Of a stretch of DNA of 64,000 nt, positions 9,200 to 48,566 are shown in pieces. The position numbers and the translations under genes were made by a program. The notes beneath the pieces are model-generated. The model did not search any database. It was not told the origin of the DNA and worked only from the letters and a program-made list of their open reading frames with translations. How positions within the stretch are numbered: the stretch's first letter is position 1; every line of letters starts with the position of its first letter. Source of the DNA: Oscillibacter sp. GTDB lineage: Bacteria > Bacillota > Clostridia > Oscillospirales > Oscillospiraceae. Where the stretch lies: NCBI GenBank assembly GCA_022795445.1, contig JAAWGR010000002.1, forward strand, positions 1 through 64,000, in the 5' to 3' direction.

Positions 9200-9293
9200 T
9201 CCTTATCAAGAGTGGCGGAGGGAACGGCCCGATGAAACCACGGCAACCTGTGTAAGCAAGGTGCCAAATCCGGCGGAAACCGACAGATGAGGA
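9200..9293 (+). promoter_or_regulatory. SAM-I (S-box) riboswitch aptamer
   Basis: Hallmark elements are in order: P1 5' strand TCCTTATC (9200-9207), AAGAG-TGG-GGAGGGA, GATGAAACC, CGGCAACC, GGTGCCAAATCC, and P1 3' strand GATGAGGA (9286-9293), which pairs with the 5' strand over 8 bp. With SAM bound the aptamer is stable and the downstream terminator forms, shutting off metK. It directly precedes the SAM synthetase gene, giving product feedback. Confidence 0.96.
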
Positions 9294-39288: not shown

Positions 39289-39491
39289 TGCTGCTCCATC
39301 CTTTCCGTTCTCCAAACTTGAGCCTTGGCGTGTAACGCGCCCTAGTTCAAAAATCCACCTCATTATACCACTAAATAAACATGGACAGTGGAAAATGTAC
39401 GGAACATTCCCCATTATTTGTTATATGATACCATATTTCACAACGGATGGGAAGCACTTTTCCTCCCGAAAATAAAAAGTTGAAAAAGCAC

Positions 39492-39520
39492 TTGAAAAAC
39501 GAAAAGGATTGTGGTATAGT
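39492..39520 (+). promoter_or_regulatory. Promoter of the phospholipase C-like gene
   Basis: TTGAAA (39492-39497), 17-bp spacer, TATAGT (39515-39520), 32 bases before the TTG start. Confidence 0.75.
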
Positions 39521-39535
39521 AAAAATACTTATGAA

Positions 39536-39551
39536 GTTAGGAGGTACTAAC
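39536..39551. promoter_or_regulatory. GTTAG-N6-CTAAC operator overlapping a Shine-Dalgarno
   Basis: GTTAG (39536-39540), CTAAC (39547-39551), extended to AAGTTAG...CTAACTT. The six central bases are part of the AGGAGG SD of the next gene. Confidence 0.8.
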
Positions 39552-40103
39552 TTGCAAAAACGAAGTCATACACTGTTAGCGCATACCCTCCTCCGGAGCC
39601 AGTGCGGCTTTGACGCCAAGCGCTTCGAGTTGGCATTTCTGTTCGGCTCCTTCCAGCCGGATGTGAACCCCTTCAGCTACTTAAAGGGCTCCCTTCATTA
39701 TAAAAAACTGCGGGGGCACAATTATGCAAATTCCCGCGACTACATCAACACAAAAATCCGGAAACTTCAGTGCCGCTCCAGTTGGACTATCTGGCAGTAT
39801 TATACCTTGGGGAAACTCACCCATTACCTGGCTGACGCCTATACCTATCCTCATAATGAAAATTTCCCCAACAACATGATAGACCACCATAAATATGAGA
39901 CAAATCTCCGCTTCTTCATGCGGGGCTACCTCGCCCATCGGCATGTCTGCCGCCAACAAGCCCGGCGGGACTTGATTGCCGCCTTGGACGAACTGCATGA
40001 TCAGTACATGTCTACGCGGGCGGGAATGTACCGGGATGTAAACTACATTCTCAAGGCCACCGGTCTCCTGATGGCCGGTTGCTGCCCCAGCTCCGTCGCT
40101 TGA
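39552..40103 (+). CDS. Zinc-dependent phospholipase C-like protein
   Basis: 183 residues from a TTG at 39552, chosen because AGGAGG lies exactly 7 bases upstream; the earlier frame start at 39447 precedes the promoter. It has the PF00882 pattern of zinc ligands: early His, GSFQPDVNP, GHNYAN, GKLTHYLADAYTYPHN and HHKYE. There is no signal peptide, so it is probably intracellular, unlike secreted toxins. The operator ahead places it in the same putative metal regulon as feo and flavodoxin. Confidence 0.8.
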   Translation: MQKRSHTLLAHTLLRSQCGFDAKRFELAFLFGSFQPDVNPFSYLKGSLHYKKLRGHNYANSRDYINTKIRKLQCRSSWTIWQYYTLGKLTHYLADAYTYPHNENFPNNMIDHHKYETNLRFFMRGYLAHRHVCRQQARRDLIAALDELHDQYMSTRAGMYRDVNYILKATGLLMAGCCPSSVA

Positions 40104-40155: not shown

Positions 40156-40186
40156 TTGACGGTTTTCATTTTGCCAGTGATATGCT
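40156..40186 (+). promoter_or_regulatory. Candidate promoter of the aromatic amino acid operon
   Basis: TTGACG (40156-40161) and TATGCT (40181-40186) with a 19-bp spacer, about 40 bases before the leader peptide. The spacing is long; the -10 assignment is uncertain. Confidence 0.5.
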
Positions 40187-40227
40187 ATCCTTTTCATACG
40201 AGTAAAAAATCTAAAGGGGTACTTGCT

Positions 40228-40329
40228 ATGACCTGCTTCACCCACACAGCCGAATACCGTTACTTTACTTTCAGCTTTACCTATTTTGGTAAGGCTTTTC
40301 GTGGTTTGGCTGAAAGTATGTGTGTGTAA
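40228..40329 (+). CDS. Phe/Tyr-rich leader peptide of the aromatic operon
   Basis: 33 codons. Six Phe and three Tyr; codons 10-24 (40255-40299) contain eight aromatic codons out of fifteen (YRYFTFSFTYFGKAF). The SD AAAGGGG lies 8 bases before ATG 40228. The stop is followed by a hairpin and then a terminator, all before aroF. This is the layout of ribosome-mediated attenuation as in enteric pheA or his operons: a ribosome starved of Phe-tRNA or Tyr-tRNA would stall in the cluster. Confidence 0.9.
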   Translation: MTCFTHTAEYRYFTFSFTYFGKAFRGLAESMCV

Positions 40330-40380
40330 GCTTACAGGTCCGGAAAAGGTCCGCCGTGTAAAGCAACCCGCAGCCAAACC
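40303..40380 (+). promoter_or_regulatory. Antiterminator pairing of the aromatic attenuator
   Basis: GGTTTGGCTG (40303-40312, inside leader codons 26-29) is perfectly complementary over 10 bases to CAGCCAAACC (40371-40380), which is part of the terminator's 5' arm and loop. The two structures are mutually exclusive. A third hairpin (about 40329-40363, GCTTACAGG with CC...TGTAAAGC) lies between. Confidence 0.8.
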
Positions 40381-40395
40381 GGCTGCGGGTTTTTT
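40365..40395 (+). terminator. Attenuator terminator before aroF
   Basis: AACCCGCAGCC (40365-40375), loop AAACC, GGCTGCGGGTT (40381-40391), ending in six T (40390-40395). Confidence 0.92.
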
Positions 40396-40438
40396 GCATG
40401 ATATAGCCTTATTTTCTTTTATTTAGGAGGAATTTCTT

Positions 40439-41449
40439 ATGATCGTCATCCTGAAACACAACCCAAATCGCGACCAATTAGACAGCCTTATCTCCTGGCT
40501 CCAGGAAAAAGGCGTCACCATCCACACCAGTATCGGTGAGGCCAACACCATCCTGGGCCTTGTAGGCGACACCTCCAAACTGGACATCGACCTCATCGCT
40601 GCACTGGATATCGTGCAGGATGTGAAGCGCGTCCAGGAACCTTACAAAAACGCAAACCGTAAATTCCATCCCGAGGACACGGTGGTCTCCGTCGGCAATA
40701 CCCAAATCGGCGGCGGCACCCTGACCCTTATGGCCGGCCCCTGCTCCGTGGAAAGCGAAGAGCAGGTCGTTGCCATCGCCAAGGCCGTCAAGGCTAGCGG
40801 CGCGACTATGCTGCGCGGCGGCGCATTCAAGCCCCGGACCTCCCCCTACGCCTTCCAGGGTCTGGGCGCGACAGGCTTGGAATATTTGAAGGTCGCCCGC
40901 CAGGAAACCGGTCTGCCAATCGTGACGGAACTGATGGATGTTACCCAGCTGCCCCTGTTCAAGGATGTGGACGTCATCCAGATCGGCGCACGGAATATGC
41001 AGAACTTCGACCTGCTGAAGGCCGTCGGCCACCAGGACCGGCCTGTCATGATCAAACGCGGTATGTCTGCCACCTATGAGGAATGGCTCATGAGCGCCGA
41101 GTACGTCATGGCCAGTGGCAATGAAAACGTCATCCTCTGTGAGCGGGGCATCCGCACCTTTGAGAGTTACACCCGTAACACTTTGGACCTTGCCGCCATC
41201 CCAGTGCTGCGGCAGCTGACCCACCTGCCCATTGTCATCGACCCCAGCCACGCCACAGGAAAATACTGGTTAGTCGAGCCTCTGGCCCGGTCTGCCGTGG
41301 CCGCCGGCGCCGACGGCCTGCAGATCGAAGTCCACAACGATCCCGCCCATGCCTTGTGCGACGGCCCCCAGTCCCTGAAACCAGACGTATTCGATCCCCT
41401 GGCGAAAAAGTTGCTGAAACTCCACGCCTTCATGCAGGAATTGGACTAA
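40439..41449 (+). CDS. aroF: 3-deoxy-7-phosphoheptulonate (DAHP) synthase, type I-beta
   Basis: 336 residues. N-terminal ferredoxin-like regulatory domain (1-70), then a DAHPS barrel with [38 protein letters not shown] and DPSHATGK. Condenses PEP with erythrose-4-phosphate. The N-terminal domain in Thermotoga-type enzymes gives Tyr/Phe feedback inhibition, so control may be both allosteric and by the leader peptide. SD AGGAGG. First structural gene of the operon. Confidence 0.96.
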
Positions 41450-41468: not shown

Positions 41469-42305
41469 ATGAACGTAGGAATTGTTGGCTTGGGACTGAT
41501 CGGCGGCTCTATGGCAAAGAGCACTAAGGTCCGTACCTCCCATACGGTCTGGGGCGTTGACCTGGACCACGAAACCATGACCATGGCCCGTATGAGCGGC
41601 GCGATTGACGCTCCCCTTACGGATGAAAACCTCGGGGAATGCGATTTGATCCTGGTGGCAATCTGCCCTTCAGCCGCCATCGAATGGGTAAAAACCCATG
41701 CGGATAAAATTGCCCCTAAAACGATCCTGGTGGACCTCTGCGGCGTGAAGCGCATGGTTGTTGAGGCCCTCGCCCCGGTTGCGGAACAGCACGGCTTTGC
41801 CTATATCGGCGGACATCCAATGGCGGGCCGGGAACGGGGCGGCTTTACATCGTCCAGCGACAGCTTGTATGTGGGCGCGTCGATGATCCTGACGCCGGAT
41901 GAACGCACGGATATGCAGCTTTTGGAGGTGTTAAAAGCCTACTTTTTAGATATCGGCTTTGCAACCCTCACCTTCTCGGACCCAGAGGAGCATGACCGGA
42001 TCATTGCCTTTACCTCCCAGCTGGCACACATTGCTTCCAGCGCATATGTAAAATCACCGGAGGCACAACGCCGCAGAGGGTTTTCCGCAGGCAGCTTCCA
42101 GGATATGACCCGTGTGGCGCGGCTGGATGAGGACATGTGGACCGAACTGTTTATGGCCGATTCCGACTATTTGATTAAAGAACTGGATATTTTGATTGCA
42201 AACCTGAACGAGTACGCGGAGGCTTTGAAAGCAGGCGACGCCCAGCGGATGCGTACCCTTTTGAAAGAAGGTAAAGACCGGAAAGCAACTGCGGGAGGGA
42301 ACTGA
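41469..42305 (+). CDS. tyrA: Prephenate dehydrogenase
   Basis: 278 residues. NAD-binding GLGLIGGS (residues 7-14), catalytic HPMAGRERGGF near 117, and the helical dimerisation domain. Converts prephenate to 4-hydroxyphenylpyruvate for tyrosine. No ACT domain is present, so it is probably not itself feedback regulated through one. It overlaps aroB by one base (TGATG). Confidence 0.94.
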   Translation: MNVGIVGLGLIGGSMAKSTKVRTSHTVWGVDLDHETMTMARMSGAIDAPLTDENLGECDLILVAICPSAAIEWVKTHADKIAPKTILVDLCGVKRMVVEALAPVAEQHGFAYIGGHPMAGRERGGFTSSSDSLYVGASMILTPDERTDMQLLEVLKAYFLDIGFATLTFSDPEEHDRIIAFTSQLAHIASSAYVKSPEAQRRRGFSAGSFQDMTRVARLDEDMWTELFMADSDYLIKELDILIANLNEYAEALKAGDAQRMRTLLKEGKDRKATAGGN

Positions 42306-43399
42306 TGAAAACCATTCGTGTAAACACTGCGAGACCCTATGACATCCAGATTGGGCAGGGCTTACTGGAACAAGCTGGGGAACGCTGCCGCGCCGCTTTG
42401 CCGAGGGCAGGAAAAATTGCCGTCGTAACGGACAGTACCGTTGCGCCCCTTTATCTCGAAACTGTGGCGGACAGCCTCCGGGCAGCGGGGTTTCAGGTCT
42501 TCTGCCAGACCGTGCCCGCAGGCGAGGGGTCCAAAAATACCGCTAGCCTGTCTGCTCTCTGGGAGTCGTTCATGGAATTCGGCCTCACCCGCACGGACGC
42601 CGTGGCTGCCTTGGGCGGCGGTATGGTAGGGGACTTGGCAGGCTTTGCCGCCGCAACCATCTTGCGGGGGATCGACTATGTACAGATTCCCACCACCTTG
42701 TTGGCCCAGGTGGATTCCTCTGTGGGCGGGAAGGTAGCCATTGACCTCCAGGCAGGGAAGAACTTGGCCGGAGCCTTCTGGCAGCCCAGTTTGGTACTGA
42801 TGGACACAGATACCCTCCGGACATTGCCGGATCGGGATTTTTCCAGTGGTATGGCAGAAGTAATCAAATACGGCTGTATCGCTGATCGGGCATTCTTTGA
42901 CTTCCTCACCGCCCATGCCAGCCGGGAAGCAATCCTGGCAGAAATCGAATCCGTATTGTATACTTGCTGCGATATTAAACGAAAAGTTGTTGAGGAAGAC
43001 GAGCGGGATACCGGACTTCGGATGATCCTCAACTTCGGCCACACCGTCGGCCACGCCTATGAACGGATGGGGAACTATGAAACCTGGACGCACGGTGAAG
43101 CCGTCGCAGCCGGGATGTGCGCCGCTGTGCAGATCGGGTTTGGCCTGGGCGTCAGCGGCGGAGACGACAGCGGCATCCAGGAACTGATGGATTTACTGGA
43201 GGCATTTCATCTGCCGACACAGATCCCCTTGGATACCAGCGAAGCCTGGAATGCCGTGGTGGAAGCTGTGGGGCTGGACAAAAAGGGCACTGGGGACGAG
43301 CTTACCATGATTTTCCTCAAACGCATGGGAGAAGCCTTGCCAGTAAAGCAAAAAAAGGACAGCGTACTGGAAAACCTGGAAGCCATTTACGGGCGTTAG
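42305..43399 (+). CDS. aroB: 3-dehydroquinate synthase
   Basis: 364 residues. NAD site GGGMVGDLAGFAAAT near residue 100; metal and substrate residues in AEVIKYG near 188 and FGHTVGHAYE near 245. Cyclises DAHP. Ten bases separate its stop from aroA. Confidence 0.96.
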   Translation: MKTIRVNTARPYDIQIGQGLLEQAGERCRAALPRAGKIAVVTDSTVAPLYLETVADSLRAAGFQVFCQTVPAGEGSKNTASLSALWESFMEFGLTRTDAVAALGGGMVGDLAGFAAATILRGIDYVQIPTTLLAQVDSSVGGKVAIDLQAGKNLAGAFWQPSLVLMDTDTLRTLPDRDFSSGMAEVIKYGCIADRAFFDFLTAHASREAILAEIESVLYTCCDIKRKVVEEDERDTGLRMILNFGHTVGHAYERMGNYETWTHGEAVAAGMCAAVQIGFGLGVSGGDDSGIQELMDLLEAFHLPTQIPLDTSEAWNAVVEAVGLDKKGTGDELTMIFLKRMGEALPVKQKKDSVLENLEAIYGR

Positions 43400-43409
43400 G
43401 AGGTGCGTT

Positions 43410-44636
43410 ATGGACATATGCATCCACCCCCGCCGCCTGTTCGGCGCAGTCTCCCCCCCTGCCAGCAAATCCCTTGCACACCGCTTGATTATTGCGGCTA
43501 CCCTGGCCGCCGGGACCAGCAAAATCCGGAACGTCAGCCTCTCCCAGGATATCGAGGCTACGCTCCGCTGTATGGATAATTTCCGCTGCAAGTGGAAATG
43601 GACCGGAGAAAACGCCTTGGAAATCACTGGCTGCATCAACCAGGAATGTGACCGGACCGGCCTGCCCCAGTTTGACTGCGGCGAATCCGGCTCCACCCTG
43701 CGTTTCCTAATCCCTTTGGCCCTGGCGCTGGGGGGCGGCGGGGAATTTCGCGGCCATGGCCGCCTGATGGAGCGTCCGCAGGAGCCATATTTCCAGATTT
43801 TCGACAAACAGGGGATTTTTCATGAGCAGAAGGATGGCATCCTTACCGTCCAGGGTGATTTAAGACCTGGAGAATACCGTTTGCCGGGCAATGTGTCCAG
43901 CCAGTTTTTCACCGGCCTGCTTATGGCCCTGCCGCTGCTGGACGGCCCCAGTATGATTACCAGCACCACGGAGCTGGAATCTGCCGCTTACATTACTATG
44001 ACCATGGGGGTTTTGGAGCGAGCCGGAGTCCCCGTACGGTACGCGAAGGAAATCAACAGTTTTGGCGTTGCGCCCTCGGTCTACCAACCGTTCGAAGCAG
44101 CTGTGGAGGCGGACTGGTCTCAGGCGGCGTTCTGGTATTCGGCTTTGACGCTGGGCAATTCCGTGCAAATCCGCGGTCTGGACATCCGCTCTTACCAGGG
44201 CGATAAAATCATCGCCGACCATGCCCGCACACTGTCTGTTCCCGGGGACGTGACCATCGACCTCTCCAACTGTCCCGACCTTCTGCCGCCTCTGGCGGTG
44301 ATGGCCGCCGTGCGCCGGGGGGACACCTATTTCACCAACGCCGCACGCCTGCGTTTGAAGGAGAGCGACCGCCTGACCACCGTCCACGCTATGCTGACGG
44401 CTCTGGGCGGTCTGGCGGAGGAAGGGCCTGACCGTCTGACGGTACACGGCGTTTCAGCCCTCACCGGCGGCACCGTGGACGGGGCCAACGATCATCGGAT
44501 TGTCATGGCCGCCGCCATCGCCGCTACCCGCTGCGTAAACCCAGTGACAATTTTAGGTGCAGAGGCTGTGAAAAAATCCTATCCGGACTTTTGGCGGGAT
44601 TATGAAAAATTGGGAGGCGAAGTGCTTGTCGTCTGA
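43410..44636 (+). CDS. aroA: 3-phosphoshikimate 1-carboxyvinyltransferase (EPSP synthase)
   Basis: 408 residues, slightly short for the family. PASKSLAHR near residue 17, the GESGSTLRFLIPLAL segment (LxGxxxRP region), PGNVSSQFFTGLL, RLRLKESDRL and NDHRIVMA. Joins PEP to shikimate-3-phosphate. Its 3' end contains the SD and start of aroC. Confidence 0.95.
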   Translation: MDICIHPRRLFGAVSPPASKSLAHRLIIAATLAAGTSKIRNVSLSQDIEATLRCMDNFRCKWKWTGENALEITGCINQECDRTGLPQFDCGESGSTLRFLIPLALALGGGGEFRGHGRLMERPQEPYFQIFDKQGIFHEQKDGILTVQGDLRPGEYRLPGNVSSQFFTGLLMALPLLDGPSMITSTTELESAAYITMTMGVLERAGVPVRYAKEINSFGVAPSVYQPFEAAVEADWSQAAFWYSALTLGNSVQIRGLDIRSYQGDKIIADHARTLSVPGDVTIDLSNCPDLLPPLAVMAAVRRGDTYFTNAARLRLKESDRLTTVHAMLTALGGLAEEGPDRLTVHGVSALTGGTVDGANDHRIVMAAAIAATRCVNPVTILGAEAVKKSYPDFWRDYEKLGGEVLVV

Positions 44637-45717
44637 GTTTGGAAAAATTTTAAAAGTCTCGGTTTTTGGGCAGTCCCACGGAAAAGCCATTGGTGTTGTG
44701 GTAGACGGCCTGCCTGCCGGGGAAGCGGTCGACCTGGAGGCACTAAACGCCTTTTTAGACCGCCGTAAACCTGGTAAGAATCCCCTATCCACCGCCCGGA
44801 AGGAAGCCGATACGCCGGTCTTCCTCTCCGGCCTGGAAGACGGCAAAACCTGCGGCGCACCGCTGTGCGCCATGATCGAAAATGCCGACCAGCACTCAAA
44901 AGACTACCGCGAGCTTGCCGACAAACCCCGGCCTGGTCATGCAGATTACACCGCCGCCGTCAAATGGGGCGGACACGCGGACATGCGGGGCGGCGGTCAT
45001 TTCTCCGGCCGCCTGACGGCCCCTCTGTGCATCGTGGGGGGAATTGCCAAGCAAATCCTTGCCCGCCGGGGCATCTACATTGGCGCGCATCTGGCCTCTG
45101 TGGGCCACGCACGGGACATGCTTTTTCCTTTGTATCCCACAGCGGAGCTGTTCGACGCCGTAGCGGCGAAGCCGCTTCCCGTCTTGAACGATCACGCTTG
45201 GGAGACGATGCAGGCGGCCATCCTGGCTGCGAAGGAAGATCTTGACAGCGTAGGCGGCACGGTCGAGTGTGCCGCCACCGGCCTGCCTGCCGGACTGGGA
45301 GACCCCATGTTTGAGGGTGTTGAGAACCGTCTTGCAGCGGCGCTGTTTGGTATTCCTGCCGTGAAGGGCGTTGAATTCGGCGACGGCTTCCATGCCGCGA
45401 CGCGCCTGGGTTCGGAGAACAACGACGCCTTCACTATGGAAGATGGGCAAGTCCGTGCCGAGAGCAATCATGCCGGCGGGATCCTGGGCGGCATCACTAC
45501 GGGAATGCCTCTGGTCCTCCGTGTGGCCGTCAAGCCCACGCCGTCTATTGGCAAACCTCAGAAAACGGTCAGCCTGTCTGCTATGGAAAACACAGACCTC
45601 ACCATCCACGGACGCCACGACCCCTGTATCGCCCACCGGGCAGTACCGGTCGTAGAGGCGGTAACTGCCGCAGTCCTGTTAGATTTATTGTTGGAGGGAA
45701 ATCATGGAACTTTCTGA
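44626..45717 (+). CDS. aroC: Chorismate synthase
   Basis: 363 residues from a TTG at 44626 (SSEFGKILKVSVFGQSHGKA), preferred because GGGAGG lies 8 bases upstream and the family normally begins here; an ATG at 44602 would add eight residues. FMN-binding GQSHG, GGGHFSGR and ESNHAGGILGGITTG motifs are present. Forms chorismate. Overlaps aroA by 11 bases and pheA by 14, so translation is coupled. Confidence 0.95.
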   Translation: MSSEFGKILKVSVFGQSHGKAIGVVVDGLPAGEAVDLEALNAFLDRRKPGKNPLSTARKEADTPVFLSGLEDGKTCGAPLCAMIENADQHSKDYRELADKPRPGHADYTAAVKWGGHADMRGGGHFSGRLTAPLCIVGGIAKQILARRGIYIGAHLASVGHARDMLFPLYPTAELFDAVAAKPLPVLNDHAWETMQAAILAAKEDLDSVGGTVECAATGLPAGLGDPMFEGVENRLAAALFGIPAVKGVEFGDGFHAATRLGSENNDAFTMEDGQVRAESNHAGGILGGITTGMPLVLRVAVKPTPSIGKPQKTVSLSAMENTDLTIHGRHDPCIAHRAVPVVEAVTAAVLLDLLLEGNHGTF

Positions 45718-46840
45718 AATCCGTACAAAAATCGATACAATTGACGACCAAATGTTGGCCCTGTTCTTGCAGCGTATGGACCTGGCGGAAGAAGTGGCCG
45801 CCTATAAAAACGAACATCATCTGCCGATCCTGAACAAGGAGCGGGAGCGGGCGGTCTTGGCTAAGGTAGCGGAAAACGCCGGGACACGGGAACGTTACGC
45901 TTACCACTTGTTTTCAACACTCTTTGAACTGTCGCGTTCCCGCCAGGCGGAATTGATTTCTTCTTCTACAAAGGTTGGGGCACAGGTGCGCGCCTCCCTG
46001 GAAGCTGGGCGTGAGCTGTTCCCCCAGACCGGTCTGATTGCCTGCCAAGGCGTGGAGGGCGGTAACTCCCAAGCTGCCTGTGACCGGCTGTTTCCCCGGG
46101 GAAGCCTCATGTACGTCAAAACCTTTGAGGCTGTGGCGTCCGCCGTAGAATCCGGACTCTGCAAATTCGGCGTCCTGCCGATTGAAAACAGCTCGAATGG
46201 CTCTGTCCGGGCGGTGTACGCACTTTTGCAGGACCATAGCCTCTCCATCGTCCGCTCCACCCGGCTGTGTATCCGGCATGAGCTGCTGGCCCAGCCCGGC
46301 GTGAAGCTGGAAGACGTTACGGAAATCTACTCCCATGAACAGGCCCTTGGTCAATGCAGCCGCTTCCTTAACCGCCTGAACGGTGTGAAGATCATCCCTT
46401 GCGGTAACACTGCCGCCGCCGCTAAGATGGTAGCTGAATCCGGAAACCGTCACGCAGCCGCGATCTCCTCCCACCCCTGCGCGGCGCTGTATGGCCTGGA
46501 GTGCATTAACGACCATATCCAGAACAGCGACAATAATTATACCCGTTTCGTCTGCATTACAAAGAATCCAGTGATTTATGCCGGAGCAAACCGCGTCAGC
46601 CTCATCATCGCCTTTGACAACCGGCCCGGAGCGCTGTACGAAATCCTTTCCAAGCTGGCGGCGCTGGATATCAACCTGACAAAGCTGGAATCCTGCCCAG
46701 TGGTGGGGAGTGATTTCGAGTTCATCTTCTTCCTGGAGCTGGAAGCCGATCTCCGGGACCCCAGCGTCCTGGCGATGCTGGAAGAGATGGAGCGAAGCTG
46801 CGCCCAATTCCAGTTCCTGGGCAACTATGCGGAAGTTTAA
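45704..46840 (+). CDS. pheA: Chorismate mutase - prephenate dehydratase (P-protein)
   Basis: 378 residues in three domains: chorismate mutase (1-85; LSEIRTKIDTIDDQM and KNEHHLPILNKERE), prephenate dehydratase (about 105-285; VLPIENSSNGSV, SHEQALGQC) and C-terminal ACT (about 297-372; LIIAFDNRPGALYEIL). It makes phenylpyruvate; the ACT domain gives Phe inhibition. It overlaps aroC. This fused form supplies the operon's only chorismate mutase, serving both Phe and Tyr. Confidence 0.96.
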   Translation: MELSEIRTKIDTIDDQMLALFLQRMDLAEEVAAYKNEHHLPILNKERERAVLAKVAENAGTRERYAYHLFSTLFELSRSRQAELISSSTKVGAQVRASLEAGRELFPQTGLIACQGVEGGNSQAACDRLFPRGSLMYVKTFEAVASAVESGLCKFGVLPIENSSNGSVRAVYALLQDHSLSIVRSTRLCIRHELLAQPGVKLEDVTEIYSHEQALGQCSRFLNRLNGVKIIPCGNTAAAAKMVAESGNRHAAAISSHPCAALYGLECINDHIQNSDNNYTRFVCITKNPVIYAGANRVSLIIAFDNRPGALYEILSKLAALDINLTKLESCPVVGSDFEFIFFLELEADLRDPSVLAMLEEMERSCAQFQFLGNYAEV

Positions 46841-46846
46841 ACGGCG

Positions 46847-48130
46847 ATGGCAGGGAAACTTTATGGCTTATTAGGCCGGAAATTAGGACACAGCTGGTCT
46901 CCCCCTATCCATGAGGCTTTGGGCTGCAAAGGTTACCAGCTGATCGAGCTGGAACCGGAACAGCTGGGGGACTTCCTCAAACGGGAAGACATCGGCGGGC
47001 TGAACGTCACAATTCCCTATAAGCGGGACGTTATGTCCCACTGTGACGTGATCGACCCAGCGGCGGAAGCCATCGGCAGTGTGAACACGCTGGTCCGCCG
47101 GGGCGGAAAACTTTACGGCTACAATACGGATATCGACGGCTTCCGCTATATGCTCCGCCGGGCGAAGATTTCCCTCATGGGGAAAAAAGTAATCATCTTA
47201 GGCAGCGGCGGAGCGTCCCTGACGGCCTATGCCGCTGCGGCACAGGAACACGCCCGGAAAATTGTAGTGATCTCCCGGACGGGCGCAGACAACTATAACA
47301 ACCTCCCAGAGCTTCACGCCGACGCGGAAGCTCTCATCAATACCACCCCTGTGGGCATGTGGCCCAACCTGGAGGGCCGGTGTGTCGATTTGGAACTTTT
47401 GCCTTCTGTAGTGGATGTGGTGGATGTAATCTACAACCCGGGCCGGACAAACCTGCTGCTTCAGGCGGAGGGATTGAGCAGAACGCATAAGCCTTGGAAC
47501 TGGGAACGGGGAGATCCAACTCCCCGCTGTTTCCACTGGACAGGCGGGTTACCAATGCTGGTAGCTCAGGCCAAACGGGCAGAGGAGCTGTTCTTTGGCC
47601 AGCCCATCCCGGACAGTGAGACAGAGGCCCTTGTTGCAAAGCTTTGGCAGGATATGACAAACATTGTCCTCGTCGGAATGCCAGGGAGCGGCAAAACTAC
47701 CGTTGGCCAGGCTCTTGCACAGTTGTCCGGCAAATCCTTTGTCGACTTGGATGACGGTATCGTCCGTAAAGCAGGCAAACCTATCCCGGAAATCATCTCC
47801 AACGACGGCGAAGGAGTATTCCGGAACCTGGAACATCAGGTTTTAATGGAAGCCTGTGCCAAGAGCGGACAGGTAATCGCCACTGGCGGCGGGGCCGTCC
47901 TCTGGTCGGAGAACCGGGAGGCTATGCGCCGTACCGGGCGGGTGTACTATCTCCGCCGCCATTTGGAGGAGTTACCCACCGAAGGCCGTCCGCTCTCCCA
48001 GGCAGGGAAGCTGGAGGAAATGTACCAGCTCCGGAATCCGCTGTACATAGCGGCGGCAGACTTCACGGTCACAAATGACAGCAGTCCGGAGGAAGCCGCT
48101 TCCGGCATTTGGAGGGATTTTTGTGGATAA
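46847..48130 (+). CDS. aroE-aroK: Natural fusion: shikimate dehydrogenase - shikimate kinase
   Basis: 427 residues. 1 to about 265 is AroE: SWSPPIHEALG, GLNVTIPYKRDV, GSGGASLTAYAA (NADP loop), NTTPVGMWPN. About 270-427 is AroK: P-loop GMPGSGKTT (277-285), ATGGGAVLW, and a C-terminal RPLSQ lid. It catalyses two consecutive-pathway steps (dehydroshikimate to shikimate to shikimate-3-phosphate). There is no SD before the kinase part. Six bases from pheA; overlaps aroQ by 8 bases. Confidence 0.95.
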   Translation: MAGKLYGLLGRKLGHSWSPPIHEALGCKGYQLIELEPEQLGDFLKREDIGGLNVTIPYKRDVMSHCDVIDPAAEAIGSVNTLVRRGGKLYGYNTDIDGFRYMLRRAKISLMGKKVIILGSGGASLTAYAAAAQEHARKIVVISRTGADNYNNLPELHADAEALINTTPVGMWPNLEGRCVDLELLPSVVDVVDVIYNPGRTNLLLQAEGLSRTHKPWNWERGDPTPRCFHWTGGLPMLVAQAKRAEELFFGQPIPDSETEALVAKLWQDMTNIVLVGMPGSGKTTVGQALAQLSGKSFVDLDDGIVRKAGKPIPEIISNDGEGVFRNLEHQVLMEACAKSGQVIATGGGAVLWSENREAMRRTGRVYYLRRHLEELPTEGRPLSQAGKLEEMYQLRNPLYIAAADFTVTNDSSPEEAASGIWRDFCG

Positions 48131-48566
48131 AAAAATTCTGGTCCTCAATGGGCCAAATATGAATATGCTGGGCATCCGCCAGCCGGAGATTTACGGCAAG
48201 TCCACCTATGAGGATTTAAAGACCATGATTTCCGCTGAGGCAGAAAAGCTGGGCGTAACAGTCTCCTTCTTCCAGTCGAACCACGAGGGAGCTCTTGTGG
48301 ACGCCATCCAGCAGGCATATTTTGACAAAATAGACGGCATCATCATCAACCCTGCTGCCTATACCCATACCAGCGTGGCGCTCTTGGACGCAGTAAAAGC
48401 CGTTGGCATCCCGACGGTAGAGGTCCATGTCTCTGACCCGGACACGCGGGAGGAGTTCCGGCATGTGTCCTACATCCGTGCCGCCTGCGTGGGAACCATC
48501 CGCGGCCATGGGCTGGCGGGTTATCTGGAAGCCCTGCGGCTTTTGGTGGAACGTGTAGATGGCTAA
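48123..48566 (+). CDS. aroQ: 3-dehydroquinate dehydratase, type II
   Basis: 147 residues from GTG 48123 (SD GGAGGG 6 bases upstream, inside aroEK). Type II signature LVLNGPNMNMLGIRQPEIYG, FFQSNHEG, INPAAYTHTSVAL and EVHVSDPDTREEFRH. Last gene of the operon, completing the path to chorismate. Confidence 0.96.
   Translation: MDKKILVLNGPNMNMLGIRQPEIYGKSTYEDLKTMISAEAEKLGVTVSFFQSNHEGALVDAIQQAYFDKIDGIIINPAAYTHTSVALLDAVKAVGIPTVEVHVSDPDTREEFRHVSYIRAACVGTIRGHGLAGYLEALRLLVERVDG

Follow-up and report, generated by a model that had tools for sequence, protein, structure and literature searches.

How does a member of the Clostridia decide whether to transcribe its genes for phenylalanine and tyrosine synthesis? 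In textbook accounts, leader-peptide attenuation is found mainly in enteric bacteria, where ribosome-mediated attenuation has been described for pheA, trp and his, and T-boxes or TRAP are the devices of Gram-positive bacteria. The question is raised by a stretch of 64,000 nucleotides from Oscillibacter sp. (contig JAAWGR010000002.1; hereafter the window), in which a short open reading frame (ORF) dense in Phe and Tyr codons and an intrinsic terminator precede a predicted aromatic operon. This leader very probably controls transcription by classical ribosome-mediated attenuation in response to charged tRNA-Phe and tRNA-Tyr, a reading drawn from sequence comparison and folding models.

The Leader ORF and the Operon It Precedes

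The window is contig 81 of an assembly of 3.24 Mb in 151 contigs, estimated to be 92.9% complete. The leader ORF (Table 1) begins with an ATG at 40228-40230, ends with a TAA at 40327-40329 and would encode the peptide MTCFTHTAEYRYFTFSFTYFGKAFRGLAESMCV. A preliminary description of the locus had proposed a leader of 33 codons with a Shine-Dalgarno (SD) sequence and nine aromatic codons, eight of them in codons 10-24. This description is borne out, as the ATG, the stop and the word AAAGGGG can all be read in the sequence and the aromatic codons are F4, Y10, Y12, F13, F15, F17, Y19, F20 and F24. Up to seven Phe/Tyr codons fall within 12 codons; when regions upstream of aroF were dinucleotide-shuffled, 18 of 801 shuffles held an ORF with six or more in 12 codons and 2 of 801 held one with seven or more. 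A scripted flag for SD-like words is set for most of the leaders listed from such regions. The RNA from 40229 to 40400 folds at -73.9 kcal/mol, against a shuffle mean of -45.9 (sd 3.79, n = 200; z -7.39). A possible promoter was recognized by eye, comprising TTGACG and TATGCT separated by 19 nt, with a TG one base 5' of the latter as in an extended -10 element; position 40156, with which the preliminary description began, is the first base of its -35 hexamer. TGnTATnCT-like sequences are likewise visible by eye 5' of the leader in several relatives. Because a consensus scan found no promoter 5' of the leader, the element is offered here as a candidate read by eye. The upstream neighbor (39447-40103) encodes a protein with a Zn-dependent phospholipase C domain (PF00882).

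Table 1. Features of the leader and operon, with positions in the window.
Feature	Position	Strand	Remarks
Possible promoter	40156..40186	+	TTGACG, 19 nt, TATGCT; TG one base 5' (extended -10); by eye
SD-like AAAGGGG of leader ORF	40213..40219	+	ends 8 nt 5' of ATG
Leader ORF	40228..40329	+	33 codons, nine Phe/Tyr codons; presumably translated
Region 1, protector arm (codons 7-9)	40247..40254	+	pairs with 40305-40312
Control-codon cluster YRYFTFSFTYF (codons 10-20)	40255..40287	+	residue mostly kept; synonymous codons vary just 5' of hairpin A
Hairpin A, nested inside 1:2 helix	40273..40296	+	40273-40281 with 40288-40296
Region 2, antiterminator 5' arm (codons 26-29, within leader ORF)	40303..40312	+	97.0% of cells paired with region 3 (78 distinct sequences)
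Intrinsic terminator (region 3:4)	40365..40395	+	11-bp stem 40365-40375/40381-40391; T's to 40395
Region 3, antiterminator 3' arm, also terminator 5' arm and loop	40371..40380	+	loop letters mostly stay complementary to region 2
aroF, DAHP synthase, ferredoxin-like N-terminal domain	40439..41449	+	Pfam PF00793, PF18152
tyrA, prephenate dehydrogenase	41469..42305	+	Pfam
aroB, 3-dehydroquinate synthase	42305..43399	+	Pfam
aroA, EPSP synthase	43410..44636	+	Pfam
aroC, chorismate synthase	44602..45717	+	Pfam
pheA, chorismate mutase/prephenate dehydratase with ACT domain	45704..46840	+	Pfam; ACT match slightly under cut-off
Fused aroE-aroK, shikimate dehydrogenase and shikimate kinase, one ORF	46847..48130	+	Pfam
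aroQ, type II dehydroquinase	48075..48566	+	Pfam; domain begins at residue 20

The operon downstream had been called a complete one for aromatic amino acids, and Pfam backs the identities of all eight genes, of which aroQ may have its true start further inside the ORF. The leader thus stands before a predicted operon for the same amino acids that it encodes. A second aromatic-pathway gene follows aroF in 68 of 70 loci with room for one. Searches of the window's genome (92.9% complete) gave neither TrpF nor TrpC, and TrpC matches occur in 16 of the 86 genomes of the genus (9 of the 42 good genomes), 15 of them above the cut-off. In many members of the genus, the operon may accordingly supply Phe and Tyr alone, in keeping with a leader that has codons for these two but is nearly devoid of Trp codons. 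Trp makes up 0.6% of residues in the 87 leaders whose AroF is less than 80% identical, and 80 of these 87 hold at least two Phe plus at least two Tyr, with the caveat that Phe and Tyr percentages are inflated because the leader ORFs were picked for their density in these residues. The scarcity of TrpC also hints that Trp auxotrophy is common in the genus.

Alternative Helices and a Model for Attenuation

The terminator that had been proposed at 40365-40395 was recovered by a terminator scan, for which 0.6 such sites are expected by chance in the region. A perfect 10-base alternative pairing had been proposed as well, and 40303-40312 (GGTTTGGCTG) is indeed fully complementary to 40371-40380 (CAGCCAAACC). 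Two further elements, absent from the preliminary description, are a helix between 40247-40254 and 40305-40312 (the protector, 1:2) and a hairpin formed by 40273-40281 and 40288-40296 (hairpin A). Hairpin A is a possible pause or bridging hairpin. A U followed by a G stands 11 nt 3' of it (40288-40308), an arrangement that we take to resemble hairpin-stabilized pause sites. By analogy, a pause at hairpin A could keep polymerase and ribosome in step.

From these parts we infer that the ORF is translated, that ribosomes can stall on it and that stalling affects transcription, as follows. With both tRNAs charged, the ribosome would pass the Phe/Tyr codons and leave at the stop, whereupon region 1 (codons 7-9) would pair with region 2 (codons 26-29), so that the terminator 3:4 would form and transcription would end before aroF. 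With Phe or Tyr scarce, the ribosome would stall in codons 10-17, covering region 1 or opening hairpin A; region 2, once freed, would pair with the newly emerging region 3, the terminator would fail to form, and aroF-tyrA-aroB-aroA-aroC-pheA-aroEK-aroQ would be transcribed. The first part of this scheme, stalling that leads to the antiterminator, stands as originally put forward; what had been missed is the 1:2 protector, which probably sets the non-stalled state.

Folding models show such switching. In the window transcript cut just before region 4, region 2 from 40305 onward pairs with region 1 at a probability of 0.73-0.99. Across 76 leaders of the same type (the genus type, defined below; 3 of 79 leaders without the searched motif were dropped), region 2 pairs at a median of 0.67 with the sequence 5' of hairpin A and of 0.02 with region 3. 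For the window's terminator arm, the modeled pairing with upstream sequence is 0.27 with no ribosome and 0.77-0.87 with a ribosome on codons 4-17; it is 0.27-0.29 with the ribosome on codons 19-25 and 0.62 with the ribosome on the stop codon. Medians for the genus type (n = 79) are 0.42 for free RNA, 0.41 at the stop and, on codons of the Phe/Tyr run, 0.69 (mean) or 0.79 (best), and those for other leaders (n = 90) are 0.45, 0.42 and, on Phe/Tyr codons, 0.66 (mean) or 0.75 (best). The early non-aromatic codons 5-9 of the window are as permissive in the model as the control codons, and within the permissive zone Phe/Tyr codons rank only mildly above others (0.61 and 0.71 among circular shifts). 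A modeled ribosome on codons 10-13 covers region 1 and one on codons 15-17 opens hairpin A; control is thus likely to be exerted at Y10-F17, and the later Y19, F20 and F24 probably lie beyond the point of switching. A caution had been voiced about timing, given that the antiterminator arm lies within the coding region. Region 2 is indeed inside the ORF, and the protector helix, if formed, probably answers most of the difficulty. The weak point that the model leaves is the moment at which a ribosome rests on the stop codon or departs from it, an event that Elf and Ehrenberg consider responsible for high basal trp expression (PMC1183508).

Conservation within the Genus

An aroF gene was identified in 76 of the 86 genomes of the genus, and upstream regions were examined for 74 of these, leaving out two on contigs that were too short (G169, G212). 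A Phe/Tyr-dense leader with a terminator is present in 72 of the 74 (71 by script, plus L121), a few of the 72 being other leader types; in the remaining two (L203, L209), the sequence upstream of aroF lacks a leader, and neither hairpin A nor the region 2 motif is present. Those leaders that match the window's in type were aligned as the genus type, comprising 79 leaders in 78 distinct rows, mostly from the genus and some from the family. The terminator is paired in 98.5% of cells of this alignment and holds 59 double-change cells, against 11.6 in shuffles. The antiterminator, paired to the extent given in Table 1, holds 4 double-change cells, a number reached by 4 of 500 shuffles, and its variation is mostly one-sided, A/G opposite U; inspected by eye, a few changes in the terminator loop, which pairs only in the antiterminator, or in the arm are matched on the opposite side. 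Hairpin A is paired in 99.9% of cells across the 78 distinct sequences, with six of its nine pairs invariant and no double changes. The protector 1:2 is paired in 80.2%, with covariation not above shuffles. Swapping partners within the genus type gave no significant result for either the antiterminator (109 of 2000 permutations) or the protector (655 of 2000).

Codon usage divides the leader in two. Codons in hairpin A undergo no synonymous change among the 79 leaders: TTT, GGT and GCT are each kept in 79, and the exceptions to AAG (78 of 79) and ACC (77 of 79) alter the residue. Control codons just 5' of the hairpin vary synonymously, as TAC 63/TAT 10, CGC 45/CGT 19 and TTT 67/TTC 9. This contrast in synonymous change indicates that RNA is conserved in hairpin A and amino-acid identity at the control codons. 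Conservation of the leader codons and of the pairing among relatives had been named as one test of the proposal, and leader, terminator, aromatic codons and antiterminator pairing are all conserved.

The same data bear on the possibility that free Phe or Tyr is sensed by the nascent leader acting as an arrest peptide, its amino-acid sequence and not the supply of aminoacyl-tRNA causing the stall, in the manner of TnaC, an arrest peptide that responds to Trp. Strong conservation of YRYFSFTYFxGKAYFGLAES in the genus type is what such a peptide would produce, but its most conserved stretch coincides with hairpin A, where codons are without synonymous variation and it is therefore the RNA that is kept. 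The peptide of divergent relatives, moreover, differs, yet the density of Phe and Tyr persists. An arrest peptide is accordingly considered improbable, and stalling for want of charged tRNA is retained as the preferred reading.

Distribution across Clostridia and Beyond

Regions upstream of aroF were collected by similarity to the window's AroF or leader; 214 loci gave 206 with an aroF upstream region (eight T-box loci were dropped), and 187 of these have distinct ends. An ORF with at least five Phe/Tyr in 12 codons occurs in 171 of the 187 (at least six in 166), leaving 16 without a leader of at least five, and 163 of the 171 leader regions have a terminator of -12 kcal/mol or below, compared with 17 of 342 shuffles. 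For a wider view, aroF is present at E<=1e-60, among the matches listed, in at least 177 of 243 genomes of the class and at least 211 of 249 of the phylum. Two samples of 40 regions, one for the class and one for the phylum, were picked by hand from the best matches listed, with one genome per family; coming from the top of the matches, they favor AroFs like that of the window, and families with low-scoring AroFs only are outside them. In the class sample 29 of 40 regions have a leader with at least six Phe/Tyr, and in the phylum sample 12 of 40 do (41 of 80 in all, one region of only 129 bases, L239, being counted as a miss), against 18 of 801 shuffles. With a terminator of -8 kcal/mol or below also demanded, the counts are 26 of 40 and 12 of 40, against 3 of 801. 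All 12 leaders of the phylum sample are among the 14 most query-like AroFs and none occurs in the other 26 regions; the leader thus seems tied to a clade of AroF. Among 87 leaders outside the genus type, similarity to the genus peptide exceeds that of shuffles of each peptide at p<=0.05 in 48 and at p<=0.01 in 31, which suggests common descent for many of them. Leaders of another look, with FYFSAGY-like peptide stretches, occur in other families (L226, L244, L246-L248, L264-L267); their terminators often carry CTCAT in an arm.

A Clostridia-like aroF with a Phe/Tyr-dense ORF upstream was also seen in eight records (L030, L040, L065, L067, L071, L077, L078, L081) labeled as Thermoguttaceae, Lentisphaerae, Spirochaetaceae, Kiritimatiellae and Treponema(taceae). 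These represent either transfer of the operon together with its leader or misassigned MAG contigs. No Phe/Tyr-dense ORF was seen before aroF in other records of this kind (L052, L053).

Known RNA families were sought as well. Neither a T-box, a SAM riboswitch nor any other Rfam family matches the leader at gathering score, and a search at E up to 10 gave four sub-threshold hits, including the trpB motif (20.1 of 59 bits) and Thr_leader (15 of 55). Rfam amino-acid leader families have no match at gathering score at the window leader or in the 80 sampled regions. A SAM-I riboswitch is located elsewhere in the window, at 9200-9293 on the + strand (82.8 bits). Three of the 80 sampled regions (L282, L290, L291), all leaderless, have a T-box at gathering score. 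The window's genome has 15 T-box matches, nine of them over the cut-off, and T-box control is therefore likely elsewhere in this genome. It had been assumed that Bacillota normally use T-boxes or TRAP for such operons; this fits aroF in Clostridia poorly, with leaders in 41 and T-boxes in 3 of 80 regions, in a sample that favors window-like AroFs.

A further alternative holds that the terminator is run by an RNA-binding protein, an unknown riboswitch or a T-box-like element, the ORF being incidental. The nearly invariant nucleotides of hairpin A are as expected of a ligand or protein site, but the leader's Rfam hits are all sub-threshold, Phe/Tyr-dense ORFs recur in the sampled regions at the rate just given, and synonymous variation at the control codons mostly preserves the amino acid. 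Control of this kind is held to be about as improbable as an arrest peptide. For the attenuator itself, the evidence leans modestly towards a broader view, in which a homologous bivalent Phe/Tyr attenuator is the prevailing control of aroF operons across Clostridia, beside T-boxes elsewhere in the genomes; the operon has carried its leader into other phyla; and the ORF spans the antiterminator arm in some lineages such as Oscillibacter, where one stretch serves codons and two alternative helices.

Co-evolution of the Helices in Divergent Leaders

Co-evolution was assessed by swapping helix partners among 81 leaders outside the genus type that share less than 30% of 8-mers and have a terminator of -8 kcal/mol or stronger. 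Regions 2 and 3 of the same leader beat swapped partners by 3.35 kcal/mol (double-centered mean; 0 of 2000 permutations, n = 81). Control regions gave no such effect, with 1919 of 2000 for the stretch before the ATG and 1651 of 2000 for the spacer after the terminator (78 leaders). In a second set, the 38 family-sample leaders with a terminator, the antiterminator gain is 3.51 kcal/mol (0 of 2000); none of the 80 sampled regions has more than 30% of 8-mers in common with an earlier region, so no leader of the second set has a near-identical counterpart in the first. The protector 1:2 gains 2.51 kcal/mol (0 of 2000, n = 80, one leader with too short a region 1 being dropped), against 293 of 2000 for its control. 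Tested one by one against shuffles of their own leader, antiterminator duplexes reach p<=0.05 in only 34 of the 89 distant leaders and 30 of the 80 close ones, a weak outcome that may reflect competing partners for the arm within the sequence scored. In divergent leaders as well, the start of region 2 often lies within the ORF, at a median of 11 nt 5' of the last base of the stop codon.

A constitutive partial terminator preceded by a translated, non-regulatory short ORF is the least probable alternative, as the 1:2 and 2:3 helices, which exclude each other, show co-evolution in distantly related leaders, and the genus type shows covariation in its terminator. The leader, the terminator and the conservation and co-evolution of the pairings thus support the original proposal of ribosome-mediated attenuation, at the level of sequence.

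Relation to Known Systems and Implications

The T-box riboswitch binds uncharged tRNA directly, without a translated ORF, and has a terminator/antiterminator output. It shares with the window leader the signal of uncharged tRNA and the switch between terminator and antiterminator, and differs in its direct binding of tRNA without a translated ORF; the window leader has no T-box match. The pheA leader of gamma-proteobacteria has control codons for the product amino acid and the alternative helices 1:2, 2:3 and 3:4, features that the window leader shares with the pheA and pheST leaders, probably including the 1:2 helix. It differs from them in its combination of Phe and Tyr codons, in an eight-gene operon led by aroF, in its occurrence in Clostridia and in having the antiterminator arm within the ORF. 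Phenylalanine attenuators and pheST are named for gamma-proteobacteria in PMC1262725, which also states that in Firmicutes no aminoacyl-tRNA synthetase gene was known to be under classical attenuation and assigns tyrosine to T-boxes.

Within Bacillota, histidine leader-peptide attenuators are known from small groups of species (PMC2965389, PMC9413887). By description, they resemble the window leader in being classical leader-peptide attenuators of Gram-positive bacteria, in which T-boxes are used as well, and differ from it in serving histidine genes and in their restriction to small species groups. The nearest precedent in the literature searched is the Acholeplasma aroF motif uORFC-13-1, known from 24 sequences of Acholeplasma and environmental origin only, with at least one Phe residue and a position before aroF (PMC8632094). 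Like the window leader, it is described as an upstream ORF with one or more Phe codons before aroF, adjoining an intrinsic terminator; unlike for the window leader, Tyr codons go unmentioned in the passage that describes it, the basis on which the two were compared (PMC8632094). No description of a Phe/Tyr leader before aroF in Clostridia was found in the literature searched, which was mainly open-access. As far as this literature and Rfam 15 go, a widespread bivalent Phe/Tyr attenuator is apparently undescribed.

If the reading proposed here is true, a leader-peptide attenuator would be a common form of control before aroF in Clostridia, gut bacteria included. It would also offer many natural variants with which the design of such leaders could be tested, with respect to codon number, stop position and helix strengths, and in these leaders the constraint on codons and that on RNA structure can be separated codon by codon.
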